IMG/VR virus record: IMGVR_UViG_3300042691_034814
Span: 1-24,899 of that record
Strand: one strand, 5' to 3'
Source: a virus
Length of the DNA: 24,899 bases
Shown here: positions 12,195 to 21,751 of the stretch, piece after piece
How positions within the stretch are numbered: the first letter of the stretch is position 1
Layout: each line of letters opens with the position of its first letter
Translations under genes and position numbers: made by a program
The notes under the pieces: model-generated
Databases searched by the model: none
What the model saw: the letters and a program-made list of their open reading frames with translations, nothing else
What the model was told of the DNA's origin: nothing

Positions 12195-12202
12195 GGTTGA
12201 TA

Positions 12203-12748
12203 ATGGATAGAATTTGTAAAAATTGTAAAAAAAACTTTCTTAAAACGCGGAAAAACCGCGGCAACTGGATGTATTGCTCTAGAAAATGCTACAGTGAAGA
12301 TCACCATGTTTTGACAAATTGCGCGGTATGTAACACTGAGTTTAGACACCACAAAACCAAAAAAAGAAGATTTTGCGGAATAAGTTGCTCTAACAAATCG
12401 AGATATGAAATTATTTTGATTCCTTGCAAGGTTTGTGGAACTAATTTCAGAAAATCTAATGATAATTCGTTTTTTTGCTCTAATGAATGCTACAACAAAT
12501 CTGGAAATCGAAGTAAAAATAAAGTCAGGGATAAAAACCCCAATTTTATTAGAGGTAAGTTTAGCTACAGAAAATATGCTCTCCGCGAACTTCCAAATGA
12601 ATGTATTATTTGCAAAAAAACCGAGAAGCTTGATGCTCATCATATTGATGAGAATAGAGAAAACAATGAACTCTATAATCTTGCTATTCTTTGTCATTCT
12701 TGCCATATGAAATACCATCATAATACCTTAGAGTTTACTGAACTCTAA
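12203..12748 (+). CDS. HNH endonuclease with three N-terminal zinc motifs (free-standing homing type)
   Basis: 181 residues on the strand opposite to all neighbours. Three Cys-rich modules come first: C5-x2-C8...C25-x3-C29, C40-x2-C43...C58-x3-C62 and C75-x2-C78...C92-x3-C96. The C-terminal nuclease has C134-x2-C137, then LDAHHIDENRENNELYNLAI and C164-x2-C167-H168, a complete zinc-stabilised HNH motif. Such genes are usually selfish homing endonucleases that cut phage genomes lacking them; zinc modules help target binding. The start is ATG 12203 with no Shine-Dalgarno site; an extended -10 box lies just upstream. Its stop overlaps the portal stop by four bases, tail to tail, which suggests a precise insertion between late genes. 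Confidence 0.8.
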   Translation: MDRICKNCKKNFLKTRKNRGNWMYCSRKCYSEDHHVLTNCAVCNTEFRHHKTKKRRFCGISCSNKSRYEIILIPCKVCGTNFRKSNDNSFFCSNECYNKSGNRSKNKVRDKNPNFIRGKFSYRKYALRELPNECIICKKTEKLDAHHIDENRENNELYNLAILCHSCHMKYHHNTLEFTEL

Positions 12749-20384: not shown

Positions 20385-21032
20385 TTAGTATCCAAGTTGT
20401 CTTAGATCTGGTGCATTAAAATTCTCAAATATTGTGTTTTCTTTTGCAAAAAGTCTACTATGCATTCTATCTCCATATGTTTTGAAAAAAGAGTCTCTAT
20501 TTAGATTGCTTGTAAAAATAGTGGGCTTATTGCTGCTGTATCTGTAATCCACTATTGCAAACATTAACTCTCTTCTATACTCCATTTTTGTAGCAGTTGG
20601 AGGATCATACATATCTCCGTACTTATCGGCATTGATCCAAGATCCTACATCGTCAAGCATGATTAAATCATCGTCAACCGTTCTTAATGCATCAGAAAGA
20701 TAATCTCCCATACCTGAAGCAATAATGTTCCTTGATCTGCTTAAAACATCTTCTTCTTTGTGCATTCTTACTGATTCAAAATTTCTTATTGCCCAATCTG
20801 CTAAAGCAGAACAAAAATAAGTTTTTCCAACTCCTGCATTTCCTAAGTACACGAAAAGATGTTTAGGTTTTTTTATGTACGCTGAAATGATTGAGGCACC
20901 CCGTTCACAAACTTTGAGTTTAGAAATGGTTGCCCCAACGTATTTATCTTCGAAGTTTCGTTTTTGGAACTCTCTGACTGCTCTTTCGGCTTTTCTTTCT
21001 CTTTCTCTTTCTGGTGATTCGTTTTCTTCCAT
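20385..21032 (-). CDS. DnaC-like helicase loader (AAA+ ATPase)
   Basis: 215 residues. It would load the host replicative helicase at the origin. Motifs: a charged N-terminal arm (MEENESPERERERKAERAVR), Walker A GNAGVGKT at 64-71, Walker B LIMLDD at 123-128, sensor-1 TSN at 174-176 and an arginine-finger region RMHSRL at 189-194, all in DnaC/IstB order. Its ribosome site (AAAGGGAAAG) and the first 160 bases lie inside the end of the initiator gene, in another frame. Gene order initiator-loader is the same as in lambda O-P and in DnaD/DnaC-type phages. Confidence 0.85.
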   Translation of the reverse strand: MEENESPERERERKAERAVREFQKRNFEDKYVGATISKLKVCERGASIISAYIKKPKHLFVYLGNAGVGKTYFCSALADWAIRNFESVRMHKEEDVLSRSRNIIASGMGDYLSDALRTVDDDLIMLDDVGSWINADKYGDMYDPPTATKMEYRRELMFAIVDYRYSSNKPTIFTSNLNRDSFFKTYGDRMHSRLFAKENTIFENFNAPDLRQLGY

Positions 21033-21751
21033 TCTTTCCCTTTTTCTCTAAGATTTTGTATATTTTTTTTAGCTATGAAGTTTTTCATGATGCCTTCGCA
21101 ATAGGCGAACCAGTCATTAAGAGGATGCTCATAATCAACAACACACTCCCAACATTTTTGAATTTCGTCTAGACTCCAATTTTTTCCGGCAAGTATAGCC
21201 CTTGTCACGAGATCTTGTCGAGAAATAAAAAACTTATTTCCTTTACTATCAATCTTTTGAATTTTATCCCAAGGCTCTGTAACCGCCGGCGAAGCCGAGA
21301 CAAGCGGTGAAAGAGCACAGAACAACTTATCTTGTTTAGCATCTTGTATAGTATTTGGTATTGGTTGGGCACTTTTGCCCATCGAGAGGGCACTTTTGCC
21401 CTCTCCAAGGGCATTTTTGCCCTTCGTGAAACTTTTTTTAATTCCTATCATTTGTTCTTCATTTACAAAGGCATACCACAGTGTCTTGTCAAACCCCTTT
21501 TTATTAAAATTATTGGTTTCGAGTACTCCAAGCGACACAAGCTTCTCGCAAAGATATTTGACTTTGTCATATCCCCAATAGGTAAAATGAGCTGCCATTT
21601 CTCTCCGAGTCTGATAAGTCCAAGTCTTTCCGTCTCGAAAATTAGAGCCGTTTTGCCGATTAAATCTTATCCAGTGTTGAAAATGGTGAATTAAAATAGC
21701 TTCTTCAACGCCATATTTTTCGGCTAAAAGGATATCGAATGAATGATGCAT
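20873..21751 (-). CDS. Replication initiator / replisome organiser with winged-helix N-terminus
   Basis: 292 residues starting MHHSFDILLAEKYGVEEAIL. The opening through residue about 95 (HHFQHWIRF, GKTWTYQTRREMAAHF, KVKYLCEKLVSLGVLETNNF, LWYAF) matches the winged-helix domain of phage replication proteins that pair with DnaC-type loaders. Residues 111-131 are three heptapeptide repeats (GKNALGE, GKSALSM, GKSAQPI) created by 21-bp iterons. A second domain (SRQDLVTRAILAGKNWSLDE, DWFAYCEGIMKNF) is DnaD-like. A Lys/Glu-rich tail ends with VNGVPQSFQRT and overlaps the loader gene by 160 bases. As with lambda O, it probably binds the iterons within its own gene to open the origin. Confidence 0.8.
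   Translation of the reverse strand: MHHSFDILLAEKYGVEEAILIHHFQHWIRFNRQNGSNFRDGKTWTYQTRREMAAHFTYWGYDKVKYLCEKLVSLGVLETNNFNKKGFDKTLWYAFVNEEQMIGIKKSFTKGKNALGEGKSALSMGKSAQPIPNTIQDAKQDKLFCALSPLVSASPAVTEPWDKIQKIDSKGNKFFISRQDLVTRAILAGKNWSLDEIQKCWECVVDYEHPLNDWFAYCEGIMKNFIAKKNIQNLREKGKEWKKTNHQKEKEKEKPKEQSESSKNETSKINTLGQPFLNSKFVNGVPQSFQRT
21367..21422. repeat. Three 21-bp iterons inside the initiator gene: candidate replication origin
   Basis: Copies of GGGCA-4 bases-TGCCC at 21367-21380, 21388-21401 and 21409-21422, exact 21-bp period. Each is a dyad, and the flanks stay symmetrical while changing sequence (TG..CA, GA..TC, AA..TT). The placement copies lambda, whose origin iterons lie within gene O. 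The period of two helical turns puts the sites on one face of the DNA. Confidence 0.8.

Follow-up and report, generated by a model that had tools for sequence, protein, structure and literature searches.

Symmetric repeats within a family of phage initiator genes, a probable replication origin, covary with the predicted recognition helix of the encoded protein

Three symmetric DNA repeats (dyads) within a phage initiator gene are almost certainly, judging from the comparison of related genes, docking sites of the replication-starting protein which that same gene encodes. They lie in the linker-coding part of the gene, and there is every reason short of certainty to regard them as three iterons of the phage origin, with binding and origin activity both deduced from sequence. 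Alignment of 82 diverse phages shows that the 5-bp arms of the dyads stay complementary while their base pairs change. Arm sequence varies in step with residues 62, 65, 66 and 69, which share one face of the recognition helix predicted by AlphaFold. From three or four amino acids of the protein, the docking sequence is partly predictable in a set of about 170 related phages. A lambda- or RepA_N-type origin is the simplest account of the array, and that architecture is itself already known.

A dyad array in the initiator gene linker

The window analysed here is the 24.9 kb stretch of DNA formed by positions 1-24,899 of IMG/VR virus record IMGVR_UViG_3300042691_034814 (24,899 nt). A sequence-only reading of the window had described three GGGCA-N4-TGCCC dyads at 21-bp spacing, all in the same codon frame and giving three heptapeptides, and we found each of these features. 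The three dyads, separated by 21 and 21 bp, are located in the linker of the initiator gene (Table 1). The plus strand reads GGGCACTTTTGCCC at 21367 and 21388 (GGGCA-CTTT-TGCCC, twice) and GGGCATTTTTGCCC at 21409 (GGGCA-TTTT-TGCCC, once). In the coding sense each dyad is GGGCA-AAA(A/G)-TGCCC, translated as G-K-(N/S)-A, and the in-frame heptads in the 292-aa minus-strand ORF are KGKNALG, EGKSALS and MGKSAQP. Exact matches to GGGCANNNNTGCCC in the whole window were confined to these dyads. Allowing one mismatch gave 4 matches against 0.37 expected, a count reached in none of 100 shuffles.

The bases outside the arms had also been described as complementary. This was correct for AA/TT in dyad 1 (two extra pairs) and for GA/TC in dyad 2, where pairing in fact runs to GAGA/TCTC (four extra pairs) and produces a perfect 9-bp stem. 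The TG/CA reported for dyad 3 is really T/A, a single pair. Seven extra pairs over three dyads have a probability of about 0.001 for random flanks (hand calculation, uniform bases), so the remark on symmetry has some basis even in this window alone.

Promoter and terminator scans picked out nothing on the array but the dyad itself, in antisense orientation to the gene, and an RNA family search returned none at the array site. GC skew across the window tracked gene strand and marked no origin, and was thus uninformative.

Table 1. Positions of the dyads, the initiator and loader genes and other features in the window.
Feature	Position	Strand	Remarks
Initiator gene, 292 aa	20873-21751	-	N-terminal winged-helix domain, linker with dyads, C-terminal region
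Predicted N-terminal DNA-binding domain, aa 1-97, winged helix	21461-21751	-	AlphaFold2 model
Predicted recognition helix, aa 61-73	21533-21571	-	Arm-covarying residues D62, K65, Y66, E69
Dyad 1 in coding order, GGGCA-N4-TGCCC	21409-21422		Symmetric span 21407-21424
Dyad 2 in coding order, GGGCA-N4-TGCCC	21388-21401		Symmetric span 21384-21405
Dyad 3, last in coding order	21367-21380		Symmetric span 21366-21381; centre 12 nt before conserved ATACC
Candidate unwinding element, A/T-rich tract	21323-21363	-	Family consensus CTATACCAGATAyTAAA, 12-nt periodicity
DnaC/IstB-type helicase loader gene	20385-21032	-	Directly downstream; 5' end overlaps initiator gene
ORF with zinc-finger-like CxxC pairs and HNH-like HHIDENRENN..CHSCH motif	12197-12748	+	
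tRNA-Leu gene, anticodon taa	18030-18100	-	ARAGORN and Rfam both

The initiator protein and its neighbourhood resemble known origins

The initiator protein matched phrog_11233 'replication initiation protein' (E 9.5e-28) and phrog_6493 'DnaD-like helicase loader' (E 1.5e-14), in both cases over the N domain, and all 76 of 76 aligned relatives matched both. These are sequence families whose descriptions contain no origin. No Pfam family matched the protein at E 1, and comparing its sequence with PDB chains yielded nothing of use. An AlphaFold2 model, built for the N domain from a 76-row alignment, had a mean pLDDT of 92.5, with helices at residues 49-53 and 61-73 followed by two strands, the order of a winged helix. 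The best solved folds were the RepA_N initiators 4pql, 4pt7, 5kbj and 4pta (Z 9.9-8.8), with 90-95 residues aligned at 3.1-3.6 A; other winged helices followed at Z 8-9, and Foldseek E-values for the fold matches were above 0.01. Since many other winged helices score close behind, the fold alone is no proof of kinship with RepA_N.

Lambda iterons are 18-bp inverted repeats, each bound by an O dimer (PMC6022878, PMC7466680). In lambda O, included as a positive control, we found an iteron spacing of 20-24 bp. As with the lambda ori in gene O, the array in the window consists of inverted-repeat iterons located where the initiator gene encodes its linker, beside an A/T-rich tract, and as in lambda a loader gene comes next, P in lambda and DnaC-type here (PMC6022878, PMC7466680). 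Unlike in lambda, the iterons have 5-bp arms, a 4-bp centre and a 21-22 bp period, their sequences differ from those of lambda, and conserved 12-mers of the CAGATAyTAAAA type are present. The Phage_rep_O domain (PF04492) was absent from the initiator protein at Pfam E 1, whereas lambda O itself scores 5.7e-36, and hhalign of the initiator family profile against lambda O (E 0.46) found no sequence similarity in the DNA-binding domain.

The RepA_N systems provide the second comparison. Their iterons are semi-palindromic direct repeats converging on an A tract (PMC7145576, PMC5703833), and the window likewise has semi-palindromic iterons, GGGCA-AAA(A/G)-TGCCC, inside the initiator gene and converging on an A tract. 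The best-studied RepA_N origin, that of pSK41, lies at the centre of rep, and the linker encoded there is dispensable (PMC5703833, PMC7145576). In PLE satellites the RepA_N domain and the origin covary as a module (PMC8263062). The modelled N domain may have a winged-helix fold like that of RepA_N initiators (pSK41, pTZ2162) and PLE satellite RepA. At E 1 the RepA_N domain (PF06970) had no Pfam match in the initiator protein and, unlike in RepA_N plasmids, the context is that of a phage with a separate DnaC-type loader. Contrary to the earlier remark that symmetry covariation is unusual for iterons, inverted-repeat iterons are usual in lambda O and RepA_N origins (PMC7466680, PMC6022878, PMC7145576).

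Directly after the array most relatives carry the consensus given in Table 1, followed by more copies at a 12-nt period; identity at lag 12 was 0.53 compared with about 0.3 at most other lags. We checked codon use at this element, choosing codons by the protein motif alone. Ile was encoded by ATA in 78/79 cases (99%) versus 33% elsewhere, Pro by CCA in 96% versus 31% and Asp by GAT in 100% versus 60%. Such constrained codon choice is, on this comparison, a DNA-level constraint. The tract has an AT content of 68%, against 61% for the gene. It sits at the position of lambda's unwinding region, and its position and composition suggest an unwinding role. The product of the loader gene matched IstB_IS21 (E 7.5e-9) and phrog_50, DnaC-like helicase loader (E 1.2e-26). 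The initiator and loader ORFs share 160 nt (20873-21032) in different frames, provided the listed loader start is right.

The main alternative is that the dyads are operators by which the protein regulates transcription through its own gene and that the real origin lies elsewhere. Autoregulation is frequent among plasmid initiators, and the covariation of arms and helix set out below would show binding, not replication. We nevertheless consider operators improbable. The sites are mid-gene and not at a promoter, the window has no further good copy, and the conserved A/T-rich 12-nt repeats at a fixed distance, together with the adjoining helicase-loader gene, fit an origin. The same layout is the origin in both lambda and pSK41 (PMC6022878, PMC5703833).

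Arm symmetry is maintained across phages

Symmetry was assessed in 82 non-redundant initiator genes, aligned on the conserved ATACC (Ile-Pro codons) that follows the array, an anchor independent of symmetry. As a control, 3' bases were exchanged between phages in 1000 rounds. Around the centre at -12, arm positions k=3-7 were complementary in 44-63 of the 82 phages versus 23-39 after shuffling (0/1000). All four Watson-Crick types occurred at k=3, 5 and 6, and three at k=4 and 7. Centres -34 and -56 gave like results. At k=8, outside the arms, there was no effect in the last dyad and a modest one in the upstream dyads. Covariation is thus much stronger in the arms across the 82 phages, and that of the flanks, noted in the sequence-only reading, is weak and a minor part of the effect. 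In two linkers (L035 and L040) alternating half-sites could pair across an 8-nt gap as well as a 4-nt gap; the half-site pair spanned by one dimer may differ between subgroups.

Residues on the recognition helix track the arm bases

Using the residue numbering of the initiator protein in the window, the variable columns that best tracked half-site similarity, with overall identity regressed out, were residues 62, 69, 65 and 66 (z 9.5-4.0). Their spacing of i, i+3, i+4 and i+7 on helix 61-73 places them on one face. Residue 62 was associated with arm base 3 (z 18), residue 65 with arm bases 4 and 5 (z 9 and 12) and residue 66 with arm bases 1-2 (z 3.6 and 4.4). The covariation of helix and arm gave a partial Mantel r of 0.42, with 0/2000 permutations reaching it. 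When the nearest phage was chosen by residues 62, 65, 66 and 69, the fraction of shared arm bases was 0.615, compared with 0.437 when chosen by the rest of the domain and 0.417 by random residue quartets (maximum 0.476).

To control for relatedness we used 40 disjoint sister pairs. Arm bases 4-5 were the same in 13/17 pairs sharing residue 65 and different in 23/23 pairs in which it differed (p 2e-7). For residue 62 the sister-pair result was modest (p 0.022), and 2/70 control residues also gave p <0.02. The case for residue 62 therefore rests mainly on the residue-base tables (D to C 21/22, E to C 9/9, R to T 13/15, K to G 10/11) and on held-out sets.

Prediction from the helix was applied to 41 held-out genes lacking the anchor. 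The predicted dyad ranked first in the whole gene and lay in the linker in 35/41 versus 12.4 expected, and the protein's own helix outperformed swapped helices 37 to 4. With the code frozen, 44 further new genes had the top predicted dyad in the linker in 23/44 versus 14.3 expected. Own helices prevailed over swapped ones 33 to 11, and the residue-62 rule was right in 25/33. The code, as judged by these predictions, holds in the 44 further genes, less sharply than in the 41-gene set.

These results probably reflect a widespread family of phage initiators with the target array in their own gene and a simple recognition code. In that probable code, residue 62 would read arm base 3 (D/E/H to C, K to G, R to T), residue 65 bases 4-5 (R to CA, K to CC, E to GA, G to AC) and residue 66 bases 1-2. 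We did not find a residue-to-base code of this kind in the open literature searched, an absence that is weak evidence given that subscription papers fell mostly outside its scope.

The same data bear on whether the dyads act as folded nucleic acid. RNA hairpins in the initiator mRNA, serving translation control or stability, would suit the good folding of the array stretch as RNA (z -6.8), but any dyad array would fold. Arm mismatches across phages had G-T to A-C ratios of 31:31, 25:39 and 22:40. G-T is thus not preferred over A-C, which speaks against an RNA hairpin, and hairpins would give no place to the covariation between arms and recognition helix. We rejected RNA hairpins on these two grounds as highly unlikely. 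Extrusion of the dyads as cruciforms, with the cruciform as the recognised form, has an equally slight chance of being correct. For lambdoid origins, a part played by hairpins or cruciforms has been discussed (PMC7466680), and the 9-bp stem of the middle dyad is perfect, but most arms in the family are only about 5 bp, and the base-specific residue code fits a winged helix reading duplex DNA. The hairpin extrusion put forward in the sequence-only reading is hence unneeded, its single-strand (RNA) version being disfavoured by the absent G-T preference.

The dyads are kept as DNA

Comparison of the linkers of related initiators revealed dyads at the same linker position. These are other dyads, such as GGGGATATCCCC, GGCGAAATCGCC and CCGCGAGATCGCGG, commonly 22 or 20 bp apart. 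Across 58 anchored arrays (106 steps) the spacing was 22 bp in 78 steps, 21 in 17, 20 in five, 23 in five and 24 in one, and 31/58 arrays used all three codon phases. At 22-bp spacing successive dyads fall out of codon phase and no longer encode a repeated peptide, indicating that the DNA is the thing kept. The sequence-only reading had named retention of the peptide with loss of the dyads as the pattern that would count against it; relatives show the reverse, keeping the dyads and losing the peptide repeat.

A combined 'dyad plus direct repeat' score was also computed over the whole of each initiator gene, and its highest value was compared with synonymous-codon shuffles. The highest-scoring site fell in the linker in 40/44 genes, lambda O included, versus 17.5 expected from shuffles, and 27/44 reached p 0.05. 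The initiator gene in the window had a score reached by 0/500 shuffles. Scoring palindromes alone, with no repeat term, lacked power (p <0.05 in 13/44 genes), and a substantial share of relatives' genes had no clear array under the scoring used. That the G-K-N/S-A heptad is the selected feature, with the dyads a mere by-product of repeated codons, is the least credible account: heptads do repeat in frame at the 21-bp spacing of the window, but the shuffles of this gene argue against it and the out-of-phase arrays of relatives rule it out. Together with the arm-helix covariation, the retention of linker dyads as DNA supports the earlier proposal that the phage origin lies within the initiator gene and is bound by that gene's product as a dimer.

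A model for initiation and its implications

We propose that a dimer of the initiator would sit on each dyad, with one recognition helix per half-site. At a spacing of 21 bp, two helical turns, the dimers would stack on the same face of the DNA, and could strain and open the neighbouring A/T-rich repeats. The C-terminal part of the initiator and the DnaC-type loader from the next gene would then bring in the helicase. Replication would in this way start within the gene encoding its own starter.

One curious repeat has here led to a rule that applies across the family and can be tested. For many uncharacterised phage initiators, some of them annotated as hypothetical or tail proteins, sequence may suffice to read off where the origin lies and which residues chiefly set specificity. 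Origins would, if the rule is true, be predictable from protein sequence. As protein and site share one gene, origin specificity could then be changed by coupled changes within about 200 bp. The roughly 170 matched protein-site pairs form a natural set for the study of joint specificity change of initiator and origin. To our knowledge, work on such joint change has so far relied mainly on swapping modules in lambdoid phages and PLE satellites.

Relatives and genome context

The loci of the relatives are mostly metagenomic contigs. A first scan of genome contigs found no relatives, and a second found one (L215), in a Chlamydiota MAG contig, too little for host assignment. One relative, in Bacteroides phage C3_41T2LP (L060, 1501-2349), is annotated as 'preneck appendage protein', probably a misannotation. 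By eye, the C-terminal pattern of lambda O (FW......SP..LR) apparently occurs in L006, L015 and other relatives, with an N domain unrelated by sequence; module exchange with a lambda O-like C-terminal part is possible in these proteins.

The window also carries a P22-type portal gene, terminase, major head protein and a RecT gene, and the tRNA-Leu gene listed in Table 1. The ORF with the HNH-like motif runs against the minus-strand structural genes around it and, from its motifs, looks like an inserted HNH endonuclease.
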